The notes under the pieces were generated by a model, which worked only from the letters and a program-made list of their open reading frames with translations, had not been told where the DNA came from and searched no databases. From positions 1,134,615 through 1,182,567 of the forward strand of contig MU646314.1 of the NCBI GenBank assembly GCA_026770585.1: 47,953 nt of DNA, in the 5' to 3' direction. The translations under genes and the position numbers were made by a program. Shown here piece by piece: positions 4,304 to 43,907 of the stretch (position 1 is its first letter; every line of letters starts with the position of its first letter). Source of the stretch: Baffinella frigidus (taxonomy: Eukaryota; Cryptophyceae; Cryptomonadales; Baffinellaceae).

Positions 4304-4337
<34 letters not shown>

Positions 4338-7300
4338 GGGTGAGACATGAAGATGATTTCTGTCGCGAGAGAGAGCGAGAGAGAGAGAGCGAGATAGAGC
4401 GAGAGAGAGAGAGAGGGGGAGGGAGGGAGAGAGAGAGAGCGCGAGGTGAGGCATGAATATGATTTCTGTCGCGAGAGAGAGAGCGAGCGAGAGAGGGAGA
4501 GAGAGTGAGAGGGAGGGAGGGAGGGAGGGAGAGAGAGAGGGCGGGGTGAGACATGAAGATGATTTCTGTCGCGATGAATGCGCACTTGAGCATCGGGAAC
4601 TGCGAGCTCATCTGGTTTGCGGTTTAGGGATTGGGGTTTAAGGTTTAGGGTTTATGGTCTAGGGCTTAGGGTTCAGGGTTTAGGGTTGGGGGTTTAGGGT
4701 TTGGGGCGTAGGGCTTATGGTTTATGGTTTATGGTTCATGGTTCAGGATTTAGGGTTTAGGGTTTAGGATTTCTGGTTTCTGGTTTCTGGTTTCGGGCTT
4801 TGGGCTTTGGGCTGCGGGTTTCGGGCTTCGGGCTTCGGTTTTCGTTTTTCCTTTTTCGGGTTTCGGTTTCGGGTTTCGGGTTTCGGGTTTCGGGTTTCGG
4901 GTTTCGGGTTTAGCGCTTACTTGCTTCGACGACTCCAGCGCCGACCCAATCAACCCCCCGAGCATGTCAAAAATGCCCCCCTCCTGTTTAGGGTTTAGGG
5001 TTAAGGAAATGCCCCCCTCATGTCGCCCCGCAGCCCCCGAGTCAGCCCCGGGCTTCGGAATGAAAATTTGTTGGACACCCCCACAACCACGAAGCCCTGG
5101 GTGTTGTTACAAAGCAGACTCCAGCCGAGCGCGACCGCGCACTACGGAGGGCCCTTGGGGTGTTATTCAAATGTCAATGTTAAAAGGGAAAATGGTATTC
5201 GAAAGTCAATTTTCGGAAGAAAATGGCTCCAAAGTTGAGTCAACGGCTCCAAGAACGCACACCGGATAACCCTCGAAGGGCCTTGCGTGGCTAGTGGCTC
5301 GATTTTATTTGATGTCCACACCGGTCTTGTCCTCAAAATCGACACGGACTCTATACCAACACGGTGGACTGCGAACCTTTCATCACAAGTCAACTGACCT
5401 GAAGACAATGAATTCAATAATTTTTCTAATGCAAATTGGTCGCGTAACACCCCAGAATCCGGGGTCAACGAAACCCTCGTAGCCCACCGAGTGGTAGTGG
5501 TATCGGCCACATACCAAACCTCCCCGCTTCAGATCTGGTATCGTCCAGGTACAACGCGTACCGGGTTAGCTAACACTCGCGGGCGGGTGAGGTGCAAAGG
5601 CAACGTTCAAATGTGAGGTGCGGCGGCGGCGGGCCACTTAGCAGCGACCGAGGACCTTTTGGCCTTGCATTCAAGGTGAAATTCCGGGTAGGTTCAAGGG
5701 CAATGGAAAAGATTTTAGTACAGATTGTTTAGATGGACTGTATCCGTGAAGCCTCCGGTGGCTGCTAAGTGGCCTGTGTGCCTTGATGATTTCAGTTGAA
5801 GGTGGGCACACAGGCGTCCGGTGGATCGTTGGATCACAGCTGGAAAACACTTAACCCTGAAAACACCCAACCCTGAAGCCCCCGGTAGCTGCTAAGTGGG
5901 ACGTGATCATGCACTAGGGGTCCCTTGCATGCGGTGTCACAATTTCATCTCGGAACATACCAGAATCTGTCCACATAAAAAGACGTAATACAGCATCATT
6001 GTATGCCTAACATAGCATATACACCCTCATCTTCGGCGTCGGAAGCCTAAGATAGCGGGACAGATTCTGTCTTGTTCCGAAATTGAATCTCACGCCCAAC
6101 CCCGACGACAGCGGGCTCCTGGAAGCGACCCAACCTTTCATCAAAAGTCAACTTATCTGAAGACAATCAACTTTAAGGATTTTTCTGATGCAAACAGAGC
6201 CAAGGCCTTGGCTCTGCAGCAAAGCAACGACTTCTACAGAACCGGTACCTACCCACTCGGTGGGCTACGAGGGTTTCGTTGACCCCGGATTCCGGAGTGT
6301 TACGTGACCAATTTGCATTAGAAAAATCCTTAAAGTTAATTGTCTTCAGGTACGTTGACTTTTGATGAAAGGTTCGTTGTCCACCGTGTGGCACTGGGGC
6401 GGGTGGGCACTTTGAACTTCTCTATGTTGTGGCGGACTTTGACGAGCGCCACGGAGGGGTATTTCGTGGCTGAAATTGGAGCCATTTTCATTATTTCATA
6501 GGAGAAATCATAGGAGAAATTACTATGGCATAAGTAATTTTACCAATGAATCCTAATTAAATCAATTGCCCCCCCCATCCTGTGTGGGGGGCGGGTGCCT
6601 TGAACCTCTCCATGTTGTGGCGGAGTCGTCGAAGCAAGTAAACCCGAAACCCGTAACCCGAAACCCGTAACCCTGAACCCGTAAACCGAAACCCTGAACC
6701 CGAAACAACCTTGAATTTATCCATGTTGTGGCGGACTTTGACGAGCGCCACGATGGTGCGGAGGAGCGTGAGCTGCACCAGTCGATCGTCCACCTACACA
6801 CAACGTCTTATCGCTTAGCGGTTATTCAAGATCCCTTCGAAGTCCGCTGTGTGGTCCAAGGAAGTCGCGTGTCTCGCCGATGCTGTGCGGGATCGCGTCA
6901 GCTGCACCACCCGGGCATCCACCTACACATAATGCTGACACTTGACGCCACACACGTTGACACTTCTAATGTTACAGTTGACGCCATGAAAGTTAACAGT
7001 TCAGTTAAAGTTGACATGTTTGTACCGGAACCGTCAACAATCACCAACGTTTCATTGTTTCCGTAGCCAAATTCTCTGCACACCGCTCACCACCCTCGAA
7101 TGCACCATGCTCAGCTTCGGGTTCGTTTTACGTAGAGGGGTCGCAACGAGAGGGGTCGCAACGGGAGGGGTCGCAACGAGAGGGGTCGCAGCGAGAGGGC
7201 CCATGCACGCGCAACGCATCCTGCCTCTGCTTGAATACAACCGGGCTCCCCACAAGTGTTTTTCACTTGCAATTTCGTACTACATGTCCTGCTTTAATTT

Positions 7301-10300
7301 CATTGCATGGCGAGCCCAGTTTTACTCAGGCAGAAGTAGGCATCAAGCAACGTTGACATGCTGGGTGTGCGGTCCAAATTCTTCAACTTTCGAGCGGAAA
7401 CGAGCCCGGGCGCACCAAATCGCCTCTCGCCCAAAAACACGGAGGCAAGGCTAGATGTCATAGACCGAGAAGCGGCAATGCTGTACCCTCTCTCTCGCAG
7501 GCTCTCCCCCTCTCTGTCTGTCTGCACGTGTGTACCCAAACCCTAAACTCTGAACCCTAAACCCTAAGACTCTGCTTTCCGATGGGTAAGGCCATCACGT
7601 CTAAAGTGGGTTGACTACCATTTGTTTCTTCAAGAAGAATATATCATATCTAGCTCGTATATGCTTCTAGATATCATATACGAGCTGGATATCATATACG
7701 CACCCCGTGTGCAAAGAGCACTGCCCACCGAGACAAACGTCGAGAGTGCATCGTATTGTAGAAATGGGCTCCGCGCGGATTCAAGGTCAGGTCAGGAAAA
7801 ACGTCTTTTCGAGAAAAAAGCGCCGAAAACGAACTTTTATGCTATCTTAGGCATGGGCAAGATGCCTAAAATAGAATCAACCACCCTCGAGATAGCACAA
7901 AAGTTCATTTTCGACGATTTTTTCTCAAAAAGACGTTCCTGACCTCCTCACCTCACGTTTTAGAAATCCGCGCGGAGCCCATTTCTACAATATCAACGCA
8001 AAAGTGGAACATCCGTTAACCCAATCAACGGTGGAAAACTCACCTCGTGAGCAGCTTCGAGCATCGCTGGATACAATATCTGCTAGATCTGATGTACGAT
8101 ATCTGCTAGATCTGATATACGAGCTAGACATGATGTATATACCCCGTGCGCGGCTTGATATCATATATGAACTAGATACGATGCACGTACCCCGTGTGCG
8201 GCTTCGAGCATCAAGTCGAAGGGCCGCTGCATGCGCGTCCCGTCCCAGTAAGGCTACACTGATGCAGCGCTAGCTATCATAGACGTAGCCCTGTTCGCAT
8301 CCGGGTGCGGAGAGAAAGAAGCAACGCACCCCGTGTGCGGCTTCGAGCATGAGGCCGACGGTAGATATGATATACGATATCTGCTAGACATCATATACAA
8401 GCTAGATATGATATACGACATCTGATGGATGTCATTTACGCGCTAGATACGATGCACGTACCCCGTGTGCGGCTTCGAGCATCAAGTCGAAGGGCCGCTG
8501 CATGCGCGTCCCGTCCCAGTACGGCGCGTCTGGGAAGTGTAGCCGCCCTTCCGTCTGGTGCGTGGGTGTGGGGTTAGGGTTTAGGGTGTGGGGTGTGGGG
8601 GTCGTTCGTGTCACGGATTCGGGTCGATTCCCCTGTGTTGCGGTACATCCCGTCAACTTTTGGCGTGAACACGATTAAGCGTCCCGTTCCAGTACGGCGC
8701 ATCTGGGAAGTGTAGCCGCCCTTCCGTCTGGTGCGTGGGTTCGGGGTTTGGGTTTAGAGTTTACAGGGGCACCTCGCTCATAAGAAACCAATCTCCCCTA
8801 GGACCCTACCGTAGGCCTATGCCTAGGGCCCTATGTGGTCCTAGGGGGGGGGCAGTTTCTTATGAGCGAGGTACCCCTGTAGGGTGTGTTGGTCGTTGGT
8901 ATCACGGATTCGGGCGGGTACCGACGAGACACCTTGGACGAGGCAGCTTGCGGCGTAACGACACAGAGGGCTACGAAGGACTTTTCGGCCCAAATCGGGC
9001 CACCTTTCCGTCACCTTATCCGTAGGAACCCCCCGATGCCCCTACGGGTTGCCTGCCGTAGGGCCCCAGGTCTCGTCGCTTAGGGGTTATTCAAAATTCC
9101 TTCGTAGCCCGCTGTTTGGTTGGGTACCGACGAGACAACTTGGAAGAGGCAGCTTGCGGCGTATGATACATTGCTCACAAACACATCACGTGAATCTCAC
9201 CCGGACGATCATAATGAATACGATTTCGAGGCTCTCCGTAATCATAATGAATGCGATTTCGGGGATCTCCGATCCGATTCTGGTGTCTCTTGAGGTTCTA
9301 AATGAAGTCTACATTATTTCTACCCTCAAGATACACCAAAATCGTATTCATTATGCATACTCCGCGGGATTGAATGGGGCGAGGGGCAGGGTGGGTACCG
9401 ACGAGACTACCTGGAGGAGGCAGCTGGCAGCGTATGATACATTGCGAACAAACACATCACACCAATCGGGTGAGGAGCAGGCCACACAGCGGACTTCGAA
9501 GGGATTTTGAATAACCCCTAAGCGATAAGACCTACGACCCTACGGTAGGCACCCCGTAGGGTCCTACGGATAAGGTAACGGAAAGGTGGCCCGAATTGGG
9601 CCGAAAATCCCTTCGTAGCCCGCTGTGTGGCTGTGGGGGCGGGTACCGACGAGACTTGGAGGAGGCAGCTAGCGGCGTAAGATACAGTGCTAACAAACGC
9701 ATCACGTGCATCGGGCGAGGAGCTACCTCAGCCCCACTCGGGTTGACTTCATCCTTTTCACGCCAAAAGTTGACAGGGTGGGTACCGACGAGACAACTTG
9801 GAGGAGGCAGCTAGCGGCGTTCTGGCGGATGCGGATGTGCTTCGACGAGCAGAGGTCCAGCAGCACGGGCACGTAGCCTAGGGGTTTGGGGTTTGGGGTT
9901 TGGGGTTTGGGGTTTGGGGTTTGGTGTTTGGTGTTTGGTGTTTGGTGTTTAGGGTTTAGGGTTTAGGGTTCAGGGTTTAGGGTTTGGGGTTTGGGGTTTG
10001 GGGTTTGGGGTTTAGGGTTTAGGGTTTGGGGTTTAGGGTGTAGGGTTTGGGGTGTACCGCGGTGGAGGAACTCGACGCGGAGGGTGCGCACCGTGAATGA
10101 GAAGCGGTTCACAACCTGTTCGGAGGTTCGAGGTTTTGGTGTTAGGTAGTAACCTCCAACCGTTTTAGGGGTTGGGGGTTAGGGTCAAGACGATATCGAG
10201 GACCGTGAACGAGAAGCAGTTCACAACCTGTGCGACGGTTGGGGTTTTGTGACGAGCGCCACACCGACCTAACCCCACCCCAACCCCTGACTCGGTTCGA

Positions 10301-13300
10301 AATCGTTCCCCTAACCCCAGACCCCAACCCCGAACCCGGTTGGGGGCCTTGACTGGCCAAACGCCAGGTCGTAAGTCGGGATTTCAGCTACACGTCTTTT
10401 TAAAAAAATTGCACCCGGATCCGAAATTTTGTATTCGGATCGGACGTGGAAAGGACGAGTAGCGGCGAAATCGATAGTGGCTACGTACCATTTAGTACCG
10501 CGAAATGAAACGTTGCGTCCTGAAATTGCCAGTAAGGACCTGCCGTGGTTTGGGGTTTGGGATTTGGTCGATATCTCGAACCGGGTCAGGGGAAAGATTT
10601 CGAACCGGGTCAGGGCTTGGGGTGGGGTGGGGTGAGGTCACGGGCGCGAACCGGGTTAGGAGTTGGGGGTTTGGGTCGATAGACGATATCGAGGCGGAAG
10701 AACGTGCGGCCCAGGGCGGTGGAATCGGTGGAATCTAATCGCGGCGAGTATTTGAATCAAGTACGACCTGGCAATGAAAATTACTACACACCGGACTTTA
10801 TCCAGTCACGTCCTTGTAGTAATTTTCGTTGCAAATCGGATCGGAGATCCCGAAATCGTATTTGACTCAATAAGTCGTCTGGATGAAATCGCTAGCGCCA
10901 GAGAGGAGTCAACATGACGGAGGAAGAGCCTAACCCCCAACCCCTCACCTCTACCCCCCCACCCCTCATCCCTCACCCCGAGCACCAGGGAGCGGTGCGC
11001 GATGCGGACCAAACCCCTGGGGAGGGACAGACAGCCTGACTGGGAGTATCCGACCATCATCTTCGAATCCGAGGCGTGACAGGCGGGAACCGACAAAGCT
11101 AAAATCGGGATTTGGTCCACTTCTGAGCGCTGGTGGCTGGGAGGGTGCACACCCCTGGGGAGGGACAGACAGCCTGATTGGCTGGAGTTATCCGACCATG
11201 GTGAGTCTGTGGCAAGGTCCCTTGCTCACCCCAAATACAATCGATCTAACGGCCGATTCTGTGTTCGGGTTTCGGGATTCTGATTTCTGTTTTCTGTTTT
11301 CGGGTTCACAGGAAATGGACTTTTAAAATAAAAAAGCTGAGACCGAATTTCCGGCCTAAGCTTTTAAAAACGTGCTTAGGTCGCTCAATAGCGGTACAGT
11401 CGATCTAACGGCCTGAGGCTGGTTGGGAGGGACCATGAGGACGTTGAGCTGCATCTCGTACTCCTCCTTGAGAAGCTGGCTCGCCTTATTCACCCCTTGC
11501 TTCGGGTCGATCTTCGGAATCGCCGCCTGCAGGGCGATTGTTTAAGTTTCGCTAAACAAAATCGGTGTATCTTAGCGTGGGCCATGGTAAGATCGTTACC
11601 GAGGGGAACATACAAGTTATGAGGAAATCCCGATTGTTGAGCACACAGGACGCCTGCAGGGGGAGAGCTGCATCTCGCACTCCCTTTCAGAAGCTGGCTC
11701 GCCTTATTCACCCCTTGCTTCGGGTCGATCTTCGGAATCGCCGGCTGCAGGGCGATTTCAATAAAAAATTCAATAAAAATTACTGCACGTTTGCTTTAAT
11801 ATTGGATTTCAATGAAAATCACTACACGTGCGCTTTGAGACTACTAGTAAAAATCGTTATATGTAGCAAATTTCATTGCCGAAATGTTTCCATCTCGTAC
11901 TCCTCTTTCAGAAGCTGGCTCGCCTTCCACTGAGCAGCGACCGAGGACCTTTTCGCCTTGAATTCAAAGTAAAATTTCGGTTAGACTCCAGGGCAATGGA
12001 TAAAATTCTAGTACACATCGTTTGGATTGACTGTATCCGTGAAGTCCCCGGTGGCTGCTAAGTGGTTGACGCCTTGCTTCGGGTCGATCTTCAAAATCCC
12101 CCCTGCAGGCGGGTTTAGGTTTCCACTTTTACTAAAGTTAACAGAGGGTCCACATTTTCTTTGAGACGTCTCACTCTCGAATTTTGTCTCGGTGAGCAGC
12201 TCTCCCAGGCGAGAAGCAAGAGGAATAGCTAAACACCGTTCGCTATTCCTCTTGCTTCTCGACTGGATTTAGGTTTAGCTAAACACGTGTAGGATGGGCC
12301 TCTCCTGACGTCCATCCTACACGGGATCGGTATGTTTAACCCCTCTGCCCATCCTAGCTAAAACAGGGGCCGCTCTTACGCGTTTGCCCCCTGGGTTTCT
12401 AGCCCTGCCCGAGTAAATTTTGATGATCAAATTGATGGTCAAATTTGGCTCTTACCTGCAGGACGAAAAGGAGGCGGGGCATGGACGCGACAAGCCACTT
12501 GATCACCTCCAGATTCCGCATCTCCTCTGACACGCACACCATCCCTGCGGTTTCGGGGTTGCGGTTTCGGGATTAGGATGGCTTATGGTTTCCAGGTTCA
12601 GATTCGCCGCTGGTACTCACTCTATCTCTGCAGTTTCGGGATTGGGGTTTGGGGATTAGGGTGTATGGTTTAGGGTTTCCTGGTTCAGGTTTAGGGTACC
12701 TAAGACCTGCACCAAACCCTAAACCTAAGCCCTGCACCAGGCAGCAGGGTCAACACTTAAGTCAACAACGACTTACGCCAACAAAGCTGATCCTCGGCAG
12801 TAAGTTGCCATTTCGTTTAGATGGACCTGCTCTGGGAGCAGGCATTTGACTTAAGGCACTGGCTTTCAGGGGGAGTTGACTTGGGTGAAATGTTCTGACT
12901 CAGAGTGAAGTTCCACGCAGCTGGGGCTGTGGGTATCAAAGTCAGGCCTGAGTGAATCTACTTTGGCGTCCTCATAACCATGCATCCTTAGGTGCCCTTA
13001 GAGCCGGGATACCCACAGGGGCAAGCAACTGACGTATGATGCCAGCCCCGTGGCTGCCATCATACTCTTCGCGTTCCTCAATTGATTTCACTTCAGATTT
13101 GCCTTGGCGTTTGAGCCATTTTGCACTTTCAGGGCTTTACAATAGCTGGGTTTGTACCATGAATCTTTGAGATGGACAGGTCCCGAAACTAAATCTATTC
13201 AGGTCCGGGACTAATACGCTCGCATAAACCGACGCGGGTTCACGCTGGGTTCACCCGATTTCTGCGAGCCTAACCCCAACCACTTGGTGGGCTACGAGGG

Positions 13301-16300
13301 TTTCGGTGACACCGGATTCCGGGGTGTTACGTGACCAATTTGCAATAAAAAAATCCTCAAGTTAATTGTCTTCAGGTAAGTTGACTTGCGATGAAAGGTT
13401 CGTAGTCCACCGTGTGGAACCGTGAAACCTGAGGGAGGGTGGGAGAGAAGGAACGTACCAATTTTGGAGATGGGTGGGGGGTTGGGGGCGGGTTGGCCCT
13501 GGGTGGGAGGGCTGGGACTGGTTCAGGGGTCCGCTATCGAGGCACCCGGGGGTTCGTTTAAAAGCCAGGACCGGAAATCCGGTCCCAGCTTTTCCATTTT
13601 CAAAGTCCATTTCCCTAAGGATTTAAGTGCAAGTTTGTAAACGTCTTCAAAATTGTGACTCGTCCTCGCTCGGCAGCGGTAGGGTTTCGGGTTTAGGGTT
13701 CAGGCACCGATGTTGGAGATTGCGCGAACGAGGTACATGTCGAGGGGGCACTGCGTTCAAGGTTCAGGGTTGAGGGTTGAGAGTTTTGGGTTTAGGGTTT
13801 AGGGTTTAGGGTTTAGGGTTTAGGGTTCAGGGTTTAGGATTTAGGGTTTGGGATTTAGGGTTCAGGGTTCAGGGTTCAGGGTTTGGGGTTTAGGGTTTAG
13901 GGTTTAGGGTTTAGGGTTTAGGATTTAGGGTTTAGTGTTTAGGGCAAACCTGTGTGCGTGCCAACTCCTCGAACAAGAGGTGCATCGCCCGGAGGATCAG
14001 CGCGAGGTTGAGGGAGTTGGTCGAGAGCTGTGCGCAGTTCTTGGAGTCGGATGAGAGAAGCGCGAGCGTCTTGATGCACTGCCGAGAAAAAACATCGACA
14101 CCGGTCAAATTTCGAGAGAGCGAGAGAGAGAGAGAGAGCGAGAGAGAGCGAGAGAGCGAGAGAGCGAGAGAGCAAGATAGCGAGAGGGAGCCAGATAGAT
14201 AGTTAAATAGAGAGAGGGAGAGAGTTCTTTATTGACAACCACCTGGTCCGGATCCGCTTAGTCACCGAGGTGATTGTAACGGACCGGCCTCGCGCCAAAA
14301 GATAATCCACACTGGTGGACTCTCCACGCGACGATAACCTCTGTATCAAATCTATTGCGTAGTGTGAATTCCCTTTTCCAGCACTGCCGACGCAAAGAGG
14401 CCCACGCGTGTTGGCTCAAAGTGTGCACCAGGATGGCAACTAAGGTATGTACCAACACGGTAGCTCACTGCACTGCCAGCCAGAATCTTTTACCTGAAGT
14501 CAACAAAGCTGATCCTCGGCAGTAAGTTGCCATTTCGTTTAGATGGACCGGCTCTGGGAGAGCGGTTCATGAGAATCACGTGACCCGGGGAGCGATTTTT
14601 GAGGGACTCCGATCGGCGCCGATCGTAGTATTACTACACGCCGATCGGAGTCAGGATAAGATAACGGACATTGGTCTTGTTTTCAAAATCAGTCTTTCTA
14701 AAACCTACGAGTGTTATTAAAAGGTGATACGGCCCCATCAGTGTGTCCGTGAAACAGACATGTCTGTTCATGATTTGCCATATTCGTGAAACAGACATGG
14801 CAAATCGCTGCAAGTCAACCCCACACAGATGCGCCCGGATCCCGGGCGCATCTATATGAGGTTGACTTGACAAATCGCGGATGTGCCCATGAGTCGCCTC
14901 CAGTCTGGCCATGTTCTCCTCCGCGCCTGGTAGCTCAACCGCGGTTGAAGCCGGCTTGTCCGGGGAAACCTATATTTCTTTCATTTCCTGGAAACGAAAA
15001 TTACTACACAATAAAGTAATCAACTAAATAACTAACAAATAAGGTAAATAACCAACTAACTGACTGACTGACTGACTGACTGACTCACTCACTAACGAAC
15101 AAAGTAGTTAGTAGGGGCGTGCCTGGAGGCCGATACGCTTGGAGTCATCGTGCGCGCCAGCAGCGCGCGTCTCGCGCGACATTGCTTTCCTAACTAACTA
15201 ACTAACTAACTAACTAAGTAACTAACTAAGTAACTAACTAAGTGACTGACTAACTGACCAACTAACTAACTGAGTAAGTGTGTAAGAAAGTAAGTAAGTA
15301 ACAAACAAACTACGCAAGTAAGTAAGTAAGTAAGTAAGTAACAAACAAACTAACAAACAAACAAACAAACAAACACACTGACTACTTTACTGACTGATTA
15401 ACTAAGTAACTAGTTAGTAGGGGCTTGCCTGGAGGCCGATGCGCTTGAAACCATCGTGCACCCCGGCAGCGCCTGTCGGCGACTTACTAACAAACTACCG
15501 CAACTACCTACGGTAACCAACTAACGAACTAAGTAACGGCAACTAACTACGGTAACTAAGTAAGTAAGTAAGTAACTAAGTAAGTAAGTAAGTAACTAAG
15601 TAAGTAAGTGAGGGGTCTCGCCTGGAGGCCGATACGCTTGGAGTCATCATGGGCGCCGGCAGCGCGCGTCTCGCGTGACATTGCTTTCCGCCGCGCTCGC
15701 CGCCCCTGCGCCCAGAAACACTCAGAAACGTTCACCGTCTGAAGCCACGTTGTGTTGTCTACTTTAGACGTGATGGGTGGCAATCAAAAGTTGCCGTAGG
15801 GGAAGAATCGCGTGAATTCGCGCGATTTCTCCAAAAGGACTCACGACCTCCAGGGGAGTTGACTTTTGCGATTGACCCCCTTCCCATCTAGCGTAGGTGA
15901 CAGGACAAGCCCAGATTTTTCACGAGGGGGGGGAGCTTTTCGCTGCGCTCGCCACCCCTGCACCCCAATACCAACACCCTTTCAACACCCAAACCCTTTC
16001 AACACCAAAACCCTGACAGACCCAGAAACGTGCACATTCTGCCCCTGCGCCAAACATCCAGGAACCTTTCACCTTCTGTTGCCACTGCGCCCCAACTCGT
16101 TGCCAGGTTCTGAAAGAAAAATATGTTTCCCCGGATAAGAACCTCTCGGTGTTAGGCACCCTGACATACAGCGGGCTACGAAGGATTTTTCGGCCCAAAT
16201 CGGGCCACCTTTCCGTTACCTTATCCGTAGGCGTAGGAACCCCCCTATGTCCCTACGGATTGCCTACCGTAGGGTCCTAGGTCCTATCGCTTAGGGGTTA

Positions 16301-16770
16301 TTCGAAATCCCTTCGTCGTCCGCTGTGTGGCCCGGCCCCTACAGGGGTTACTTGCAAACAATGAACGCACCGCCCCAGGGTCCTACGATAGGGCTGGTTC
16401 TAGTAGCATAGGGGGCGGTGCGTGTCCTTATTCACGAGAAATCTCTGTAGGGCTACACACGGTGCGCGAAACAGTAGCGAGAGGGTGCTGCTTTGCCGAG
16501 ATGGTGGGGATCGCTGAGAGAAGCAGGAGAGGGTTATGGACAAAACACCAGATGATCTCCAACGCGAAAATGTTGATGATGTGGAAAATGGTGGAACTCA
16601 CCGCTTTGCCGATGTCGTGGGGGTTGCGGCCCGCCTCTTCTTCCGCTGCCCGCTCGGCCTGGAGATCCCGCGCAGGGTTGAGGGTTGAGGGTTGAGGGTC
16701 CAGGATCAAGAGTCCAGGGTCCAGGGTTGAGGGTTGAGGGTTGAAGGTGGAGGGTTGAGGGTTGAGGGTG

Positions 16771-16815
<45 letters not shown>

Positions 16816-17895
16816 GGTTGAGGGTCGAGGGTTGAAGTTCCAGGGTCCAGGGTCCAGGGTCCAGGGTCCAGGGTCCAGGGTCCAGGGTCCAGGGTCCAGG
16901 GTCCAGGGTCCAAGGTTGAGGGTCCAGGGTTCAGAGTCCAGGGTTGAGGTTTCAGGGTCCAGGGTCCAGGGTCCAGGGTTGAAGGTTTCTCACCGTGGCG
17001 CGAAGGTTGAGGTCGTCCTGCTGCTCCAGCGTCGCTGCGATGGGGGGAAAGACGAGGGTTATTAAGTTGACATACGAGGTTTGTTAAGTTGACACACGAG
17101 ATTTGTTAAGTTGACATACGAGGTTTGTTGAGTTGACATACGAGGTTTGTTAAGTTGACNNNNNNNNNNNNNNNNNNNNNNNNNNNNNNNNNNNNNNNNN
17201 NNNNNNNNNNNNNNNNNNNNNNNNNNNNNNNNNNNNNNNNNNNNNNNNNNNNNNNNNNNNNNNNNNNNNNNNNNNNNNNNNNNNNNNNNNNNNNNNNNNN
17301 NNNNNNNNNNNNNNNNNNNNNNNNNNNNNNNNNNNNNNNNNNNNNNNNNNNNNNNNNNNNNNNNNNNNNNNNNNNNNNNNNNNNNNNNNNNNNNNNNNNN
17401 NNNNNNNNNNNNNNNNNNNNNNNNNNNNNNNNNNNNNNNNNNNNNNNNNNNNNNNNNNNNNNNNNNNNNNNNNNNNNNNNNNNNNNNNNNNNNNNNNNNN
17501 NNNNNNNNNNNNNNNNNNNNNNNNNNNNNNNNNNNNNNNNNNNNNNNNNNNNNNNNNNNNNNNNNNNNNNNNNNNNNNNNNNNNNNNNNNNNNNNNNNNN
17601 NNNNNNNNNNNNNNNNNNNNNNNNNNNNNNNNNNNNNNNNNNNNNNNNNNNNNNNNNNNNNNNNNNNNNNNNNNNNNNNNNNNNNNNNNNNNNNNNNNNN
17701 NNNNGAGTGTCAGACATTGGACGACAATAGTTGCACCTCACCAGTCCCCCCCCCAGCAAAAGAGGGGGGGGGGGGGAGGGGGGAGAGAGATGTAACATAG
17801 CCCATGGGTTCATGGGCTAGGTAGCTACCCAGCCCTTCTTTCGGGTGGCACTGCTAGCGCCCAAAACGAGTTTCACGAACCCCACATGCCCGGGT

Positions 17896-17948
<53 letters not shown>

Positions 17949-18007
17949 GGTCGAGGGTTGAGGGTTGAGGCTTGAGGGTTGAGGGTTGAGGGTTGCGGGT
18001 TGCGGGT

Positions 18008-18060
<53 letters not shown>

Positions 18061-21000
18061 GGTCGAGGGTTGAGGGTTGAGGGTGGCGGGTGCGCACCAC
18101 CAGTCACCCGAAGCAGCTTATCCCAGACCCTTGCAAGGATTCGGGTATTTTATTTTAAAAACAAACCATCCTATGACGCTACGGTAGGAAACCCTAGGCA
18201 CCTCGAATTGCTGACGGGAGATACTGAAGATATCTCATCGATTTAGCTGAAGATTAGTACAGTACCCGACACGGTTATAAGCTGCTACGGGTTGCTGGTG
18301 GCAGGGGCCAGGGCAGCTACTGCAAAGCTACAGGGGAAGTCTCAAAAAGTAGCGGACACTCTGGTGTCCGCTACTTGGAGCCATTTTCCCCTCACAAGGT
18401 AACTTTTACCCCCAGGACGTGACCAAAATTCGTGAAACGGCAACCTACAAATAGTTGTAGTGTCGTGTCCACGAATTTGAGAAGTCCCCTGTGGCTTTGC
18501 AGCAGAGAGAACACCCCCCGCGGCTCCGCACCCCCTGTGGATGTAGCCGAGCGGCGCGGACGTGACGGACTCAACCGGGGAAGCGATTTGGTTCGCATCA
18601 GGGCCCAGAAAGCCATCCAGGACTGAACGGTTCAGCAATGAGAGCGGCGCGGACCTGATGGGCTCGTTATTAAGGCTCATAAATGTGTGAATCACTCAAC
18701 TCAAGGCTCAAGGGCCTACCTGGGACCTGTACCGAGAGTAAGAAGGAAGAAGAAGAAGACCTGATGGACTCTTTGGCAAAGACATTCAGGACTAAACGGT
18801 TGCGGCGAAGCCATCCATGACTGAACGGTTGTAACGAGAGCGCACCTGATGGACTCTTTGGCAATGTCGAGGAGCGCAGACCCAGCCGAGTGCCCCGCGT
18901 CGTGGTCGCCTGAGATCACAAATTCGCACAGCGAGGATACGATCACCTGCGTTGGGGGTTGGGGGTTGGGGGTTGGGGATTGGGTGTTGGGTGTTGGGTG
19001 TTGGGTGTTGGGTGTTGGGTGTTGGGTGTTGGGTGTTGGGTGTTGGGTGTTGGGTGGGTGTTGGGTGTTGGGGGTTGCGATCCCATCCCGCCGAGTATTT
19101 TAATGTCCGAGGCCACTCAATTTAAACCATCTTTAATGCTATCGTAAGGGTGGTTTATCTCTTATTTTGCTGTGTCAGCTTCGACATAGCTTTACTATAG
19201 GAGAAAACTCACCCCAAGATAGCAAAAACACGGTTTAAATTGAGTGGCCTCGCACATGAATTTAATCTTCTTCTTCTTCTTTATTATTAACCTCTCAAAG
19301 TCCCTGTGAACAGGTCCTAGGCCTATTGGAGAGTGGTCAACTTACTAGCTACGCACCGTTTGCCCTCGACGGGGACCGGGCCCCCGTACAGACATCCTAA
19401 GACCTGTCAACACTCGATCCCATGGGCAATTGGAGCCGTTCCTTCATAAATGGGCGAACGGTTCCAATTTCCTGTGGGCGGAGAGTGTCTGAATTCAATA
19501 CCGGAACTTAATTTAATACCGGAACAAATCGAATTTAGTACTGGAACAAATCGCACGACACCGTAGCCTTGGGGGTCATGCAGCCGAAAAGAAGAGGGGC
19601 AGCTCAACTCGCGCGTACGACGACCTCTTCGCTTGGACCCTAAACCCTAAACCCTGAATGCTGGGTACAGGGACTTCGGGTTCAGGGGTTGGCCACTTAG
19701 CAGCGGCCGAGTTCCTTTTCGCATTGAACTCAAGGTAACATCCCGGTTAGGTTCCAGGGCAATGGATAAGATTCTAGTACAAATATTTTAGATGGACTGT
19801 TTCCGTGAAGCCCCCGGTGCCTGCTAAGTGGAGGGGTCGGACCTCGCCCACGCTCTCTTTGCGTGGTGCAGGGACTGAGGATGTAGGGGTTAGCGATCCC
19901 AGGGTTAAGGGGTTGGGAGGGTTGAGGGGTTAGCAGATGGTTGTATTGAATTCGGGGGAAAGACAGCACGCCTCGAGCGTATGCCACTCTCTTTTCTCGG
20001 ACCCTAAACCCTGAACACTGAACCCTACACCTTAAACTATTGGTACAGGGACTGAGGGGTCAGGGGTTAGAGGTGCCAGACCTCGCCCTGGCGCTCAACA
20101 ATCGGGACCATGCTCTTCGCCAGCACCCTCCGCAGCACCGCTGCACACCTGCGGTTACGATGTGGGGTTTGGGGTGTGGGGTTTGGGGTTTGGGGTGTGG
20201 GGTTTAGGGTGTAGGGTGTAGAGTGTAGGGTGTAGGGTGTCGGGTGTAGGGTGTCGGGTGTAGGGTGTAGGGTGTAGGGTGTCGGGTGTAGGGTGTTGGT
20301 TGAGGGTTGAAGGTCTAGGGTTTAGGGTTGAGGTTTTAGGGTGTCGGGTGTCGGGTGTCGGGTGTCGGGTGTCGGGTGTAGGGTGTCGGGTGTAGGGTGT
20401 TGGGTTGAGGGTTGAAGGTCTAGGGTTTAGGGTTTAGGTTTTAGGGTGTCGGGTGTCGGGTGTCGGGTGTCGGGTGTCGGGTGTCGGGTGTCGGGTGTAG
20501 GGTTTAGGGTTTAGGGTTTAGGGTCTAGGGTCTAGGGTCTAGGGTCTAGGGTTTATGGTTGGGGGCCGACCTCCGCTTGATCTCCAGGTCCATGTCGTCC
20601 ACGCCTTCTGCCGCAATCTGTTCCAATTTGACCATCAAAATTAATTTGACCACACCTGCTCCTTGCCACCCTCTCCGTTAAATAAAAATTAAAGCTGCTG
20701 CAGGAAAACTGGATTCCTGGTACAGAAGTTATGTTTAGTACCAACACCGTGCAAAATTTCCAGACATCGAGAACCAACACAGAGACGGTGTTGGTACTCA
20801 ACCATTAACCTCTGCCATTATTTCATTCTTTGCCGTGGCGAAAATATGCAAAAATCGCTCTACTTTGAGGCCTCCTACTTCCACGAAGCGGACCTGAGTA
20901 AAACTGGGATCGCCATTAACTACATTTAGAGCAGGAAATCTTGTACAAACGTGCTAAACCATATTTACGGCGAGCCCAATTTTACTCAGGCGGGGCTAGA

Positions 21001-24000
21001 AAGCCTGAGGGCAAACGCGTAAGGGCGGGCGACCCAATTCCGGCATCAACCGAATCCCGGCATTCCGTAGGGTGCTTCCGTATGCAATACCGTAGGGCGG
21101 CAGGGAATGCCGGAATTATGTTGACGTCGGAATTAGGGCGCGCACTCTTACCAAAGACACTTGGGATTCTCATGTGGCCACACAGCGGGCTACGAAGGGA
21201 TTTTGCGCCCTTACCTTTCGGCCTCCAAGTTGGATGAAGCGTATCGTCGCGCCCTTACTCAGGTAGAGCTAGAAACCGTGAAGGCAAACGCATACCTTGA
21301 GGTTCGTGTGTGGCGAGTAATGTAATCCCGGGGGGGGTTGGACGTACCTTGCCACAAGAGAACGCTAGAGGGGCCTATTTAAAACCAGGGTGCTTTAAAA
21401 AGTGGGCATTTGTGTAGTAACTTTCGTTGATTGGTCTCGTTACTAGCCATATATTGGCCAGTCACAAAGTTGGAATACCTTATCCCGGTACAAATATCTA
21501 CAACCCCACATATAAATAGGCCCCTTGAGCATTCTCGAGTGGTGAGGCCCCCCACTTCGACGAAGCGGATCGCCAGGTCTGTGTTCAACACCAGCTGCAA
21601 CATTCGCCAAAAGTTGCCAAACATGGGTCAAGGGCTCCCAAGAACGGGCCTGGGACAACCCTCGAAGGGCCTTGCGTGGGGCGAGTAATCCCGGGGGGGG
21701 GTGGACGTACCTTGAGGCCTCCAACTTCGACGAAGCGGATCGCCGCGTCTGTGCTGAGCACCAGCTGCAGCAGGGTATCCCACGCGTCTCTCCGCACCGC
21801 CACCTGCATCCACAACTTGTCCACGTCAGCAATCACAACACCAGCAATTACCCATCGGCAGTTCGGTTGGGCCGCCAGATGCAAGAGGGTCTCCCACGCG
21901 TCCCTTCGCACCGCCACACCTGCGTCCACAGCTCGTCCAAGTCAGTAGCGTGCATTCTCTGATGCACTCCTAGCTCTCTCCGAGTTTTATTCTGGCTCGT
22001 CCTTAAAAGAAATGAAGAGCAGAAATCCAGTACAAAATGGCGAATAGACAGTCTTGAGGACGAGCCAGAATAAAACTGAGGCAGAGCTAGGACTCTGGTA
22101 AGCGCACGCGTCTCTTCTCATCGCCACCTACATCCACCTACCACCACAAAACCTCCTCCAAGTGAGCAACCACGCATCGGCAGTTCGGTAGGGTCCACGG
22201 TCCGGTTGGGCCACCAGCTGCACCGTGTCGCGTGTCGCCTCTCCTCACCGCCACTTGCGTCCACCACGCCACCAATCTCATAAGAAAACGGTTTTAATTT
22301 AAAACCTTTGGGCAATGAAATTTACTACAAACCATGATCTTTATTAGTAATATTAAAGCATTCGTGAAGTAATTTTCATCGATTCCTAAGGTTTGAAATT
22401 GAAACCGTTTTCACGTGAAATCACGCATCCACTCCCTCTCTGAGAGCAGCGCCGTCTTTGCCCACACAGCGGACTTCGGGGGGATTTTGAATAACCCCTA
22501 AGCGATAAGACTTAGGACCCTACGGTAGGCAACCCGTAGGGGCATAGGGTTGTTCCTACGGATAAGGTAACGGAAACTCGGGCACTCAGTGCCCGAAAAT
22601 CCCTTCGTAGCACCTGTGTGGCCACAGCTGTGTGCACCAGTCGACCCAACCGGAGCGTCGCTAGGATCGCTACGAGGCTGGGGTCCAAATGCGATGCATC
22701 GAAAAAATGTGAAACACCAAAATGGCTCAACTTCCAGCCAAAAAAATCTCGAAAATGAAGGGGGGTCGGCAATTTTCACCGTTTGAAAAGACTCGTGGGC
22801 GGGAAGTTCTTAGGCTAACTCAGAAGGCTATTTCAGAAGGCTGACTTTGAAGGCTGGCTCAGAACGCGTGCGCACGTGCACGCAGCGTGCAGGTGAAGCA
22901 AGCGACTGGTAGGAAATACGCAGCCGAGACTCCCACCACTTAGCAGCGGCTGAGTTCTTTCCCCCTCGGATATCCGGAGGAAACGCGGTTCGAATCCAAT
23001 GCAAATGGACAAGATTCTAGTAAAAAATGTTCAGATGGGACTGTATCCGTGAAGCCTCCGGTGGCTGCTCCGTGGGGCCGTTGTCTGACCTGAACCAGAC
23101 ACGTGGTGTACCAGGACGGCAAACCACGATTTGCACCATGACAAGCTCGGATTCGTGAGGAGTGGCGAGGGTCTGAGGAAGGCGGGCAGAGGCAGGTTCG
23201 GTGGAGTTAGGTTTCTGAAAATATTTTCAAAGAATGGTTGGGTGTTGAAAGCTTTCAACTGTTGTGGGGCAGGTTCGGGAGGGCGCGAGTTGCATGTACC
23301 ACACGGCGGGTTTCGCAGATCGGCCCATTAATGTTCGAGGTACTAACTGAGAATTGCGCGGTACAAAGACAACTTGTTAAATCGACACTTCAACCAGATT
23401 TATAGTTGAAATTTTCTGCGAAGGCCACAGTGCGGAGGGACGCGGCCCACTCGAGAATGCTGGAGGATTCTATTTATATGTGGGGTTTTAAATATTTGTA
23501 CCAGGATAAGGTGTTCAAACCTCGTGACTGGCCAATATATGGCTAGTTACGTGACCAATCAACGAAAGTTACTGCACAAATGCCCACTTTTAAAAGCACA
23601 TTGGTTCTAAATAGGCCCCTCTAGCATTCTCGTGTGGGCCCAGGGTGCGTAACCGGGTGCTACTGTATGCGATACCGTATGGTGATACCGGAATGAGGTT
23701 GACGCCAGAATTAGGGCGTCCACTCTTTACCAGGGGTTGGTAAAAGACATCTTAATACCAACATTTCGACCAGATTTATAGTTGAACTTCGAAGCCTACG
23801 GTGTGGAGGGTTGCGGCGCACCCGCTTCAATCTTGCACCAATTCACTCATCCACCAGGATCTTGTACCAAAAAACTTTTAATTTATAAAAATGGTTCAAT
23901 GAAATTTACTACACAGAAAGATTTTTGTTAGTAATATTAAAGCAAACGTGTAGTAATGTTGCTTCAAACCATTTTCATAAAATGAAAGTGTTTTCATATG

Positions 24001-27000
24001 AGATCCGGGGAGGGCTCATAGATTGTGGGCGCACCCGCTTCCCCTCCGACGCGAGCTGCAGCATGATGTCGATCGCCCCGAATGATGACATCACCGTCCT
24101 GCAAACAAACACCATTTCGTGAATAAACCATCAGTGATGTATCCATAAGGACCCTACGGTAGGCCATGGGTAGGGACATAGGGTTGGTCCGACGGATATC
24201 CTAGGAAGGAAGCAACGCATCACAAGTCGCCCCATTTGAATTAACCCCTGGTCCTCTTCTCATACCCAGGCCACCATCAGGTACCGCTCAGCCCGTCACG
24301 CCAGCAACAGAGACATAAAAAAACAGCACAGGGCGCTAGGTGGCGCACGGGGGGGGGGTTGACAGAGCTGAAACTTGTCAAAACCTAAAACTCTAAAACT
24401 TCAGGATCACGCCAAAAGTGGCCGGAATCGGAGCCCGTGTTCATGATTTCATCCCGGTCCGTGGCCGACAGTCGCGAAAACCGCTCTACTGCTTAAAGCC
24501 AAACCGAGTTAGTCCACTGTCCATTCGAGGTGCAGGCTATCGTCGTGTGGCCTGACTTTTCAGAGTCGGGCTCACAACCTGTTGGCAGCGCCACCCGCGA
24601 GGTGTGCTGGTGGTGGTTTGCAGGTGGCGCGGGGAGGGGGGGGGGGGGGGGGGTAGATAACCTGTTAGCAGCAACGCCCGCGAGGGCCAAGTACCGCATG
24701 GCAGCTTTCTATACCGGCGTCCCAACAACACACGCTAGCGACTTTTCAGAGACGGGCTCAAAACCTGTTAGCAGCGACGCCCGCGAGCGCAGCCATGGCG
24801 GGCGCAGCCATCACCTGCGTCGACGCGTACATGCTGCGAACAAGGCAAGAGACTTTTACTCAACTTGTCACGTCAGACCACATGCGAACAGCCAAGATGT
24901 TCAGTACTTGCTCTGCCGATTGGATGCAATTCAGTGACACAGTGCATGCTGCGAGCATCCGCGTGGTCAGTGCATGCTGCCATGCCACCCCCCGAGTGTT
25001 CAGCATCATCCACACCAGCATGCTGCCCCCCCCCCCCTCCCCTCAGTCGCGTACATGCTGCCAAATCGATGAACCGAATGAATCATCATGACCCACCGGT
25101 GGGTAAGGTGTTCCAACCTCGTGACTGGCCAATATATGGCTAATTACGTGACCAATCAACGAAAGTTACTACACAAATGCCCACTTTTAAAAGCACACCC
25201 CCTCAGTCCTCGCCAACGCTCCTCCGGACAGGAGCCTACCCGGGGTCAAATGCTAAATAACCCTTTATCGCGAAAGTCGACACATTGTGTACCACTATAA
25301 TACTTGCACGACCATTTAGTACCAGAATTCATTCATCACAGGGGGCTCAGATTCTGAGCCCCCTGTGGGCAAAATAATCTTAAGTTGCCAAATTTGCCTG
25401 TGGGTCCGCTCTTGCCCGGACTGCTCGCCAACACACCCCATCCCTGCCCCAAGTCAAGCCCTCCCACGTTTCACCCCACACCCAAGATCTCTGACGACAC
25501 CTTGCTACAAACCCGCCAGAATTTGAACGAAGTAAGGATTTGAGGAGCCACAGCGGGCTACGAAGGGAGTTTCTGGCCGATTCTGAGCGTGCATCGGTTG
25601 GGATATCCGTTGGAACAACCGCATGTCCCTACGGATGGCCTACCGTAGGGACCTATGGAGTATCGGCTTGAGGGTTCTCCACGAAATCCGTTGGTAGCCC
25701 GGTGCATGGGGTGGGTAGTTGGTGACCTGTTGGCAGCCATATCGAGCAACGGCATCAGGATTTCGCCACGCAATTGCTGCCGCCCCGGATTTGTCACCAG
25801 ACCTGCCAGCCACACAGCATCCATTAATTCATACCTAGCTCTGCCTCACTCGGGCTGACCGACTATTCTCAAGTTGACAGATTTGCGGTACACACCCACC
25901 TTTCTCAAGTTGACATATTTGCGGTACACACCCACCCAGAGGAAAAGAGCCCTGGCTGCCCAACCTGATGAGCCCAAAGAGACAGAAACAGAGCTAGCAT
26001 ACTGCACGTGCTTCGAAACGTCTCGCCCACTAGGACGAGGTACCCAAGGTCCTTTAGGTCCTTTAGGTTTTAAATGCTCCCAACATAGCCCAACACTGCC
26101 ACACCACCCGCGCAGGAGGTCGGTGATGGAGCTGCGCGGAAAGTCCCGCGACTATTTCTTTTATGTATTTTTTTGTAGGACCCTACGGTAGGAGGTCCTA
26201 GGGACCTGGGAATGGCTGACGGGGAGATTCAATGAGATCTCATTGATTTAGCTGAAAATTACTACAGTGCCCGACCCGGTTATAAGCTGCTACGGGTTGC
26301 TGGTGGAGCGCTAGAATACTGCACGCGCTGACTGGCACACCACCCGCGCAGGAGGTCGGTGATGGAACTGCGCGGAAAGTCCCGCGACTGTTGCCTTGAC
26401 ACCGCTTTTGCTGGCACGAGCCCAGCCCGGTTGAGTTATGTCCCGGGGAAAGCCTGTGCAATTATGTGAACAGTCGTGGGAGTGTCCCACGTCAGCTCTG
26501 GCATGTGAAACACATGCCCCTTTGCCATTCCTCGGAATGACAGGCGTCGACACTGGGACACGGTGGTGGTTCCCTCTCCTTGCTGGGGGCCCCCCACCTG
26601 CATGTAAAGTCGAGAGCTGACTTGCAGGGGGTCAGCAGAGATGACCAGCAGGGGTCACTCACAGAGCTAAACTTGCAGGGGTGACCACCCTCTCCTTGTC
26701 CTGCTGGGGGCCCCACCTGCATGCCCGACTCGTTCCCCCGGGGAACGCTCCATCGTCGGGGTCCTCTTCCGGAACGGCCGGAGGTACTTGGTCATCCTCA
26801 CGTTCCCTTCCCCTGGCAGAATGTCTCGTCGTGACGTTGGTGGTCGCTGCGCCATGCCGTGTTGGTTGGGTTGTGCAAGCCTCCTTATGCGCGTCGAATT
26901 GGTCCTCTTGGTGTGCGTGCCAAGCACCCGTTCGGTCTGGGAACCACCCTCCGCCCTCCCCCCACCTCCCCCCCCCATCCCCCCTTCCGCCCGCGCCGTC

Positions 27001-29594: not shown

Positions 29595-29625
29595 GGTTGC
29601 CCCCTCCGCCTCCGCGACGTTGCTC

Positions 29626-29816
29626 ACTCACTCACTCACTCGCTCTCTCACTCACTCACTTATTCACCCACTCACTCACTCACTCACGCACTCACTCACT
29701 TACTCACCCACTCACTCGCTCACTCTCTCACTCACTCACTTACTCGCCCACTCACTCACTCAGCCACTCACTCACTCACTCACTCACTCACTCACTCACT
29801 CACTCACTCACTCGCC
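29626..29816. repeat. (CACT)n microsatellite
   Basis: About 190 bp of ACTC tetranucleotide units with a few substitutions. Frames rich in Thr, His, Ser and Leu here are artefacts. Confidence 0.95.
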
Positions 29817-32997: not shown

Positions 32998-33084
32998 GCC
33001 CTTCTGGTGGCGGAGGGCAAGAAGCTGCTGGCTGCGGACCCCAACGCTCTTCTCTCGGCAGCGCGGGTCGGAGATATGACCCAG
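32998..33084 (+). CDS. Ankyrin gene, exon ALLVAEGKKLLAADPNALLS..
   Basis: An 87-nt phase-0 exon (29 codons) lies between TTTCGGCAG and ACCCAG|GTGAGT. It reads ALLVAEGKKLLAADPNALLS then AARVGDMTQ, which looks like the capping start of an ankyrin domain. Confidence 0.75.
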
Positions 33085-36000
33085 GTGAGTCCTTGAGGTC
33101 CTTTAGGTTCTTCGAGCTCCCAACATGGGCAAAATTTTCTGGCCGCATGCCCTTCAACTCCGGAACATCGAACGAGAACACATCACAAATACACCTCACC
33201 CTCACCACCCCAACACATATATCTTATTTATGCACAATAATTGGATTTTGTCTGTCCCACGAAGTTCACCCTTGAAGCTATTTCGATCGGTTGAGTAATT
33301 TTTCAAAATGTGACTCACGCCACGCACCCCTCACCCGACGCCCCTCTCCGCACTCTCCTGATTCATTTCTCGCCTCACTATGCTCTCCCGTTTTGCAGAT
33401 ACACCAGATCGTGGCTGCTGGCGGCAAAGTTGGGGTCACCGACGCGGTACGTTTTCATGCCAAAAGAAAACTGAATCAGTTCCCTAATTAGCGTTTTCGT
33501 TTGATTAGGAGGCCTAATTGAATGTACTATGACCCAACCAATTTCTCCTATTCAACCTCCTATTAAAAAGGAACTGATTCAGTTATCTCCCGAGATGAAT
33601 TTGGCGTGCAGAACATCTCAGCATTTTGATTTGGTTGATTTCCTCTCAGTCCTCCTGCAACGACGCCAAGATCCCGAGTGCTTTGAGGAGTTTAGGGGTT
33701 AGGGGTTCAGGGTTAAGAGGGTATTGGCGTCTAGGGTTTATGGAAGAAGGGGTATTTTCGGCTCCAAGTGAGATTCGCTGGACTCGAGTGGGTCGCCACC
33801 GTTGGGTTCAATCCACTTCCATGTGGTAGGGTCAAGCCTGGAAGTTGACTGCATGCAGCGATCTAAAAGCTCGCCCACGATTCCCAGGGGGGGGTCACAA
33901 AACTCAAAATGCGTGCGTCAAATGTGTTTTCGTGGTGTGTCATCTTTGTTCTTAACTGTTGAGAAATTTGAGTCTCGTCGGGGAAATCTGCGCAAGGAAC
34001 CAAAACGGGGGATCGGTCGTCACCCCAAGAACCACCTGCTTTCCAGAACCAGATATGAGCCCCTTTTAGGTGTGCAGTCATCTCCGATGATTCACCTGCT
34101 TGGAATGGTGTCTGCTAGTTTCGAAAACGATCCGAGGGATTGCGCAGGGAGGCGCCGTGAAGGGGCCAGATGGAAGTGAGACGAGGTTTGTGAGACACAG
34201 ACCCTGCGTACACATACACACTGATCGTAAGCCCCAAACGCGAAACCACATGCGACAGCACTCTGAATTCCTAGGCCAGCACGAATCGATTCGGGGTCGG
34301 TGCGGTGATCTCAACGTGATCTGGCGTACCCTGCAACCAGCGTGTGGACCGTGCATATGCATTCTGGAAGGATTCCGCACCATCCGTTGGTACCGCAGAA
34401 GAACAATGTGCCATGCTCGGAGCGTTGGCATCTGTTGCAGGTGGCGCCTGAAACCACGCGGAGTGGGCGTGGCTGACGGGGAGGCGCGTGGCGCAGCTTT
34501 TCACCACGCCGCTGCATTATGCTGCTTTGAACGGCCACGAGGCGGCGATCAAGGCGCTTGTGGCGGCAAAGGCGGACGTTCACGCCAAAGACAAGGCAAG
34601 AGGGTGGGGGGGTCTAGGAGGGCGAGGGGGGGGCGTCGTGGGGGTTATGTGTTACTGTTCTGGTTTGGAGTTTTGAACCCTCAGATTGTTCAAAGACCCA
34701 ATCAGTGAACCATTGGCCCAACCGTCAACCCGAAACCCTAACCCCTGAGCGTAGACCCTGAACCCCTAACTCTCAAAGCGTGAACCCTGAATTTCCGACC
34801 CTTATTGATCAATTTTACACCCTAACTGTATACGGTAGAGACGTGCGCCTCGATCCTGAACTGAGATGAGGTTTTTGAGACATAGACTCAATGCTCACAT
34901 ACACCCTGAGGATGAACCCCGAGCGCAAACCTGAAACCCCTTGCACCCTGAACTCCAAGGCCAGCACGAACTGATTCAGGGTCGTTGTGGTGACCACGAC
35001 GTGATCTAGTCCTATGCAACTAGTGTGTGGACCGTCCACAAGCCTTCTAGAATGATTCCGCACGCTCCATTATGCACCACGGAAGAACAATGTGCTGTGC
35101 TCGGAGCGTTGGCATCGGTTGCAGGCGGCGCTAGAAACCACGCGGAGTGGGCGTGGCTGACGGGGAGCCGCGTGGCGCAGTGGGACGGAGAAACGCCGCT
35201 GCACAAGGCTGCTTTGAACGGTCACGAGGCGGCGATCAAGGCGCTTGTGGCGGCAAAGGCGGACGTTCACGCCAAGAACAAGGCAAGAGTGTGTGGGGGG
35301 GGAGGGTGCTGGGAGGGCGAGGGGGAATCTGATGGGGTCTGTACTGTATTATTGTGGTTTAGACGTTTGAATCTGAGGTCGTTGAAAGGAACCCAATCCG
35401 CGAACCTCAGAATCGACCGTCAACCCGAAACCCGAAACCTCAACCCCTGTGCTGAAACCCAGAACCATAAACCCATAGACTCTGAACCCCACACCCAAAT
35501 TTCCTGACCATATCCACACAGCGGAACCTGGTTGCTGAGTCACCAGGTTGACTCATTTAATTTCGTAGGGACCCTAGATCCCTTCGGATGGCCTACCGCA
35601 GCGTTATCCCTTAAGTGGCGAGTAGGTTCATACGCCCTACCGTAGGGCCCTAGGACCTGACTTGGGCGAGTAAGTGTGAATATTCACCCTATGGTCACTC
35701 AAGGGATGTGGATATTTCGATCTTCAACACCGAACCTGGATTCCGGAACTGTGAACCACGCAAGGAAAACCCCTGTACCCTAATGTCTGAACCCGAAAAT
35801 CTTCACCTTTACCCCAACCACCCAAATTATATAACCTTGAACCCAATCCCTAAAGGTGCAAACCCAATACCTCAGACTCATATCCTCGACCCTGATCCTC
35901 TGAACCACTGCTTGCGAAAAGGGCCGCCGTTTGTGAAACTTAGACCAAATGCGCACAAATACACCCTGAGCGTAAACCGAGAACTCTAAACCGAACGGCA

Positions 36001-43459: not shown

Positions 43460-43907
43460 CGGTGCGGCGATGGGACCGGGTGGTCCTACTCCCTCTCCCT
43501 CAGTCGGGTTGACAGACTATTCTCAAGTGCAAGAGAATCAACGCCCCTCGGATGCCTCTCGCGGGCCTGAGCGGTCTCAGGACGAGGAAGGGCAGAGCAG
43601 AGAGAGTGTGTGTGACAGAGTGCACTTTATTGATGCTGACAAGGCCGCAATGTATCACCCCCCGAGGCAATGCCCAAGGAGGCTGTAGAGGCTTCGTTTC
43701 GATTTCGATTTCGTGTTTTATTAGCTTGGATTCGTCGGCCGACCCGGGCCTTCTGTTAGTCTAAAAATCGGTCTCGCCTACGTTGTATGTAAGCACCGTC
43801 TTGCCTAATTCTGGGGGTCGCTCCCTGATGATGCGGATGAGGAAGAAGACGACGAAGAAAGGGTTTAGTGGAGGATAGTGAGGCAGACCTAGGGGGGGAG
43901 AGCGCTC
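43460..43907. other. 3' flank of the V-ATPase assembly factor gene
   Basis: No convincing coding sequence. This should include the 3' untranslated region of the minus-strand gene that ends at 43908. Confidence 0.4.

Follow-up and report, generated by a model that had tools for sequence, protein, structure and literature searches.

Interstitial telomeric sequences (ITSs) are telomere units that stand inside chromosomes and are connected with break repair; a few horse loci carry a direct target duplication, and 31% of human ITSs lie in introns, as chance predicts, with an effect on splicing named as worth testing (PMC7215372). In Daphnia, introns have been gained by insertion at double-strand breaks, some with short direct repeats, and target duplication at staggered breaks has been described for such introns (PMC4202315). 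Gained introns of Amorphochlora amoebiformis are lineage-specific, and half of them bear a simple repeat, [AT]n (PMC12730881). Plant telo boxes are AAACCCTA motifs in genes, commoner in the first two introns (PMC3022908). Here we describe 47,953 nucleotides of cryptophyte nuclear DNA, which we call the window and which come from Baffinella frigidus or an organism very closely related to it, and in this stretch a minus-strand gene with five introns that appear to consist almost entirely of telomere-like CCCTAAA-type arrays.

The likeness to these systems is partial. Tandem telomere-type units occur at internal sites here as they do in ITSs, but, compared with the ITSs covered in PMC7215372, the Baffinella arrays are a mass repeat, extend from donor to acceptor as introns and, in the window, follow the sense strand. 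The direct repeats of the Daphnia introns are 4–17 bases long, whereas the Baffinella array introns have no detectable ones, and no word in telomer- occurs in the main text of PMC4202315. The repeat in Amorphochlora is a dinucleotide and, in the part of PMC12730881 on which we draw, is not described as forming a whole intron; telo boxes, as presented in the corresponding part of PMC3022908, are isolated short motifs for which a role in expression has been proposed, rather than intron bodies. A phrase search of the literature, with most subscription papers outside its reach, returned no paper naming telomere-like introns. ITSs, break-repair introns and simple-repeat introns are thus known parts; introns with telomere-like sequence throughout, occurring in several genes with RPB1 among them, we found in none of the papers searched.

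Five array-filled introns in one gene

The window occupies C12:1134615-1182567 in an assembly that comprises 382 Mb in 1,364 contigs; the genome of strain CCMP2293 is given as 534.5 Mb with 53.9% GC in the portion of PMC9756366 that we cite. Arrays were detected by wraparound alignment to (CCCTAAA)n, and the highest score in 16 scans of 8 dinucleotide-shuffled windows was 13. The host gene was modelled on the minus strand with at least 16 exons (a–p) at 4570..24098, coordinates that are limits of the model rather than established gene ends. Frame is kept across 14 of the 15 modelled junctions. The remaining junction, e–f, spans an intron with a 545-base N gap, so that an exon may be missing there. 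The exons have a GC content at third codon positions (GC3) of 0.85, compared with 0.89 in the Vma22 gene and 0.74 in the ankyrin-repeat gene of the same window, and their frame scores best of the six.

Five of the 29 introns modelled in the window are at least 94% sense C-rich telomere-like array, all five in this gene. Each is predicted to have GT–AG ends and flanking exons of continuous phase. Intron c–d (20149..20570, 422 bp, phase 2, 97% array) is built of blocks of CCCGACA, CCCTACA, CCCTAAA and other units behind the donor GCGGAG|GTCGG. Intron f–g (16659..16993, 335 bp, phase 0, 94%) has CCCTGGA and CCCTCAA blocks and ends in 15 nt of non-array sequence. Intron h–i (13751..13949, 199 bp, phase 0, 97%) is followed by exon i, a mere 43 nt (13708-13750) with array on both sides, so that one array alignment crosses it (13680..13944). 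Intron l–m (9878..10057, 180 bp, phase 1, 97%) contains many CCCCAAA units and has the acceptor CCCCTAG, and intron o–p (4612..4920, 309 bp, phase 0, 99%) runs from the donor GTAAGCGCTAAA to the acceptor AACCAG with 13 internal AG. The five arrays score 131–252 against (CCCTAAA)n, the one in h–i being scored jointly with the array beyond exon i. In 20,000 trials that scattered the same 16 arrays at random over the introns of the gene, five or more introns with 90% cover never occurred (mean 0.11).

A sequence-only reading of this DNA had listed these introns as telomere-like from donor to acceptor, and the measured cover of 94–99% bears this out; four of its coordinate pairs are exact, and the fifth donor, which it put at 20580, belongs at 20570. 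The array-bounded splice sites that it placed at 45606, 18946, 12544 and 8554 are also present. Two further arrays of variant units lie in the same gene, one of CCCAACA (18952..19076) that stops, at its 3' end, 5 nt short of the acceptor of intron d–e, and one of CCCTCAA (17892..18091) within intron e–f.

Array introns and splice sites across the genome

Telomere-type heptamer arrays are an abundant dispersed repeat of the Baffinella nuclear genome: (TTTAGGG)4 has 30,621 matches in the 382 Mb, overlapping matches counted, versus 2 for the reversed pattern. (Nested matches are included in the genome-wide pattern counts given here, which may be lower bounds.) We searched the assembly for GTAAG within 12 bases before (CCCTAAA)2 and obtained 80 matches, or 70 without nested pairs. 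Reading 1 kb around each of the first 8 in listing order gave four apparently complete array introns, three cases of GTAAG inside an array and one ambiguous case. Among the 70 distinct matches, 52 have GTAAG in register with the heptamers (gap 0 or 7), array-internal ones included.

The four additional introns (L052–L055) measure 170, 177, 326 and 261 bp, are 97–98% array and are flanked by open exons that would be phase-continuous; none has an internal GT past the donor, and at most one internal AG occurs past the donor GTAAG. All three upstream frames are open at L052. L055 lies in RPB1, where GYIQRRLIKALE precedes the array intron and DVIVRYDGTVRNSLGSVIQ follows it. The joined exons match Pfam RNA_pol_Rpb1_5 (E 4e-9), and the joined piece matches 31 distinct PDB chain sequences, which are RNA polymerase largest subunits as far as they are named; the best match, 3h0g_A (E 8e-11), is gapless across all 31 residues. 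The sequence-only reading had attributed array-filled introns to one gene, which now looks too narrow, as candidate complete array introns occur elsewhere in the genome, RPB1 included.

In all nine array introns, that is, the five of the window and L052–L055, which were also the set for the edge and repeat tests below, the last GT ahead of the array serves as the donor, and the acceptor uses the first AG that occurs at the array's end or beyond it. Eight young arrays of the window contain no GT on the sense strand, apart from a single one in one array, and their sense AG number 13 in 4614-4919, 6 in 20155-20565, 1 in 17892-18091 and 0 in the others; reversed, the same arrays hold 25–90 GT and 0–48 AG. 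Units at the edges can themselves come close to splice sites, as in the step from CCCTAAA to CCCTAG or from TAAACCC to GTAAGCCC. We infer that scarcity of GT and AG, together with edges that are already close to splice signals, makes the arrays spliceable.

Other properties of the repeat were considered and set aside. As a source of consensus branch points it was dropped, strict CTRAY being absent from the young arrays. Stop codons were rejected as a requirement because the arrays at 17892-18091 and 18952-19076 (CCCTCAA and CCCAACA variants) have no stop in any frame and leave all three sense-strand frames open. For 24 arrays outside the window, the sequence around the first AG and the last GT did not clearly separate the strands: YAG follows C-rich ends in 16 of 24 cases and G-rich ends in 19 of 23, the latter figure inflated by the unit itself.

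Array strand and neighbouring genes

Within the window, arrays make up 17.9% of modelled intron sequence and 2.2% of what remains outside exons, a remainder that may itself hold unmodelled genes; the 1.4% of exon sequence that is covered is the alignment crossing exon i. A genome sample taken at preset places regardless of gene content, mostly N, has 26 arrays that cover 12% of its 34,485 readable bases of 200 kb, not far from the share in modelled introns, and introns may therefore not be the sole home of the arrays. Orientation in the window is strongly skewed. Some sense C-rich array is present in 18 of the 29 introns and some antisense array in 6; the totals are 4,577 sense and 448 antisense bases, and of the arrays in modelled introns, every one of the 14 that reach 100 bp has the C-rich strand as its sense strand. 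Since the ankyrin introns are paralogous, fewer independent events, perhaps nine, stand behind this bias.

Genome-wide, the acceptor pattern CGCAG occurs within 12 nt after (CCCTAAA)2 367 times and after (TTTAGGG)2 120 times. It was chosen after the result for GCAGG had been seen. The latter pattern follows C-rich units 506 times, versus 136 for the reversed control GGACG; in 103 kb of analysed sequence the respective counts are 299 and 201, which gives an odds ratio of 2.5 (P 3e-12, with nested matches left in). After G-rich units GCAGG is found 900 times, a number that seems inflated by variants such as TGCAGGG, and for this reason CGCAG was used instead.

Two other genes of the window bear on the arrays. 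The ankyrin-repeat gene (32998..41381, plus strand, 10 modelled exons, best Pfam E 4e-50) has sense C-rich arrays, mostly decayed and up to 751 bp long, in 7 of its 9 introns; the sequence-only reading missed that decayed arrays fill much of these introns. Among them, 36407..37128 makes up 55% of intron X5–X6, 39408..39777 makes up 49% of X8–X9 and 40276..41026 makes up 67% of X9–X10. Three introns of this gene begin with GC in place of GT, at 34596, 35283 and 36327 (AAG|GCAAGAG). The PCC-domain gene, also on the plus strand, has joined exons that match Pfam (E 9e-32), and its product is 98% identical over 68% of the query to the partial Baffinella frigidus protein P0001 (T484DRAFT_1571313). 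The two differ at one splice-junction residue and in the choice of last exon, that of P0001 being encoded at 47892-47953. In intron P4–P5 (45606..46453) an array at 45608-45771 starts 2 nt after the first intron base, and P0001 fits this array-bounded donor while implying an acceptor 3 nt further on. We guessed the first exon of the PCC model and the intron of 29 bases behind it; for the last exon, our intron table gives a start that is 5 bases too low. The window also has a single-exon Vma22 gene (43906-44387, minus strand).

Repeats of other kinds are present as well. A GA-rich tandem array at 3935-4574, with units of about 102 bp and 282 bp, has sequence in common with the end of exon p, so that this exon border is part of the satellite, and long tetranucleotide arrays of CTCA and CTAA lie at 29623-29813 and 15190-15412. 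Fragments of exon edges, many with a splice site, are duplicated in the neighbouring intron (8123-12109, 20861-22267 and 47211-47467), with 28 of 29 matches on the same strand. The 5' edges are copied upstream and the 3' edges downstream; the 3' edge of exon m occurs four times, one fragment is internal to exon k, and the one inverted copy is that of exon o at 6622. Six matches fall inside the satellite beside exon p. The pattern resembles that of recurrent insertions at exon borders, with long duplications of the target. An Rfam scan of the window gave no match.

Origin of the arrays and its meaning

How the arrays came to be introns may be considered as a series of steps. Arrays would enter or arise inside genes; they would then lengthen and become homogeneous block by block, as read from the arrays themselves, and be removed as ordinary GT–AG introns, a step to which frame continuity points and, for RPB1 and PCC, homology. 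Splicing would work well because the sense C-rich strand holds few or no GT and AG, with the last GT before and the first AG after the array as splice sites, sometimes supplied by an edge unit one or two changes from GTAAG or YAG. Finally, the arrays would decay to degenerate septamer text in longer introns, as in the ankyrin gene. Most array-filled introns would have begun as telomeric-repeat insertions at breaks in or beside exons, and this is the least certain step. To the account as a whole, with break insertions as the main source, we give a probability of roughly 0.55.

In the five introns, positions 1–3 and 7 of the unit are at least 90% conserved and positions 4–6 about 67%, and in the ankyrin introns decay is more even, at 59–72% per position with position 5 at 44%. 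We read this as variants that probably arise at synthesis or amplification, with slow neutral decay later. The flanks speak to the first step. In the sequence analysed, 5 of 45 arrays lie between direct repeats with a score of 12 or more, where mismatched flanks lead one to expect 0.14; at a score of at least 10 the figures are 6 of 45 and 1.18. The arrays concerned are L005 (43 bp), 6639-6706 in the window (27 bp), L044 (15 bp), L022 (15 bp, a repeat that takes in the acceptor CAG) and, weakly, 2051-2273 in the window. Support for insertion by repair thus extends to some of the arrays but not to the array introns. The sequence-only reading had taken the array itself to be the intron and had proposed that telomere-like DNA is captured into genes and becomes spliceable, for instance by break repair; the first point is supported and recurs in other genes, whereas capture by break repair stays a hypothesis, with direct repeats flanking 5 of the 45 arrays and 0 of the 9 array introns.

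Several observations weigh against this account. No direct repeat at the nine array introns exceeds mismatched flanks (scores 6–9 versus up to 11). L052–L054 are read from open frames, and their joined translations have no Pfam match above cut-off. Arrays of 84–751 bp in five paralogous ankyrin introns start 81–134 bases past the donor, inside longer introns. With respect to strand, the GGACG control covers C-rich units, and GTAAG stands before G-rich units 467 times and before C-rich units 80 times, which gives no support to a strand rule. This comparison is confounded, since GTAAGG looks much like the G-rich unit itself and three of the eight C-rich hits that were read are array-internal. 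G-rich-sense arrays are found at the donor of PCC intron P3–P4 (45248..45309, plus strand), an exception to the pattern of the window, and beside a strong exon in L050. Outside the window, coding-strand calls divide into 7 C-rich-sense and 8 G-rich-sense rows, two of the 7 being the same exon, and into 2 and 2 where the strand difference is clear; these calls were too weak and were dropped as strand evidence.

The main alternative is growth rather than gain, in which old introns with a few internal heptamers were filled by slippage or unequal exchange, with no capture into exons. The ankyrin introns fit it, as their arrays occupy corresponding places and differ in size, so that arrays do change length inside introns. 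So do the runs of identical variant units, varying mostly at positions 4–6 as amplification of single variants would give, and the lack of direct repeats at the nine array introns. But growth would have to replace nearly the whole interior of an intron, five times in one gene, and for this reason we weigh insertion slightly above it; moreover, direct repeats flank some arrays, as after insertion, and GTAAG shares the register of the heptamers in most distinct matches, part of them array-internal. We regard growth as a real possibility, though one that we tend to doubt.

Two further explanations would place the origin elsewhere. If the arrays travelled inside a mobile element, introner-like or otherwise, that brought its splice sites along and duplicated its target, one could understand the 15–43 bp direct repeats around some of them and the exon-edge copies in neighbouring introns, nearly all on one strand and six of them in the satellite by exon p. 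However, the nine array introns have neither terminal inverted repeats nor a fixed target duplication: end-to-end inverted repeats, like the direct ones, do not exceed mismatched pairs, a comparison in which repeats of a few bases, whether inverted or of the end-shared direct kind expected of break-repair introns, escape detection. Nothing common to these introns was seen except the heptamers, and we consider such an element improbable. It is more improbable still, to the point of hardly being credible, that open frames happen to lie on either side of arrays which are intergenic or assembly repeats rather than introns. That suspicion draws on the host gene: searches of about 5.8 billion proteins gave no homolog within their sensitivity, and its Arm/HEAT Pfam matches are all below cut-offs. 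Its exons were selected by eye, with open frames as the guide, and frame continuity is therefore not fully independent evidence. Against it, frame, GC3 and splice ends agree in this gene, homology supports the RPB1 and PCC junctions, and the NCBI protein P0001 fits an array-bounded donor.

Beyond the individual introns, telomeric repeats may be one of the main sources from which this lineage draws new introns, with repair or telomerase placing (CCCTAAA)n into exons, a generalisation that we offer tentatively and hold at a little short of even odds. Baffinella frigidus is a cold-water alga. If the generalisation is true, the C-rich strand would supply an intron body in finished form, with hardly any GT or AG and with edges one or two changes from the splice consensus, that is tolerated even in RPB1. 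How introns originate has long been asked, and for many new introns no source can be recognised. In the present case a recognisable sequence is the intron itself, so that age, orientation, edge changes and presence or absence can be counted in one genome. The finding bears on the minimal needs of the spliceosome, as the intron body is almost without internal signals, and it raises the question of whether introns can arise as a product of telomere maintenance or of break repair.

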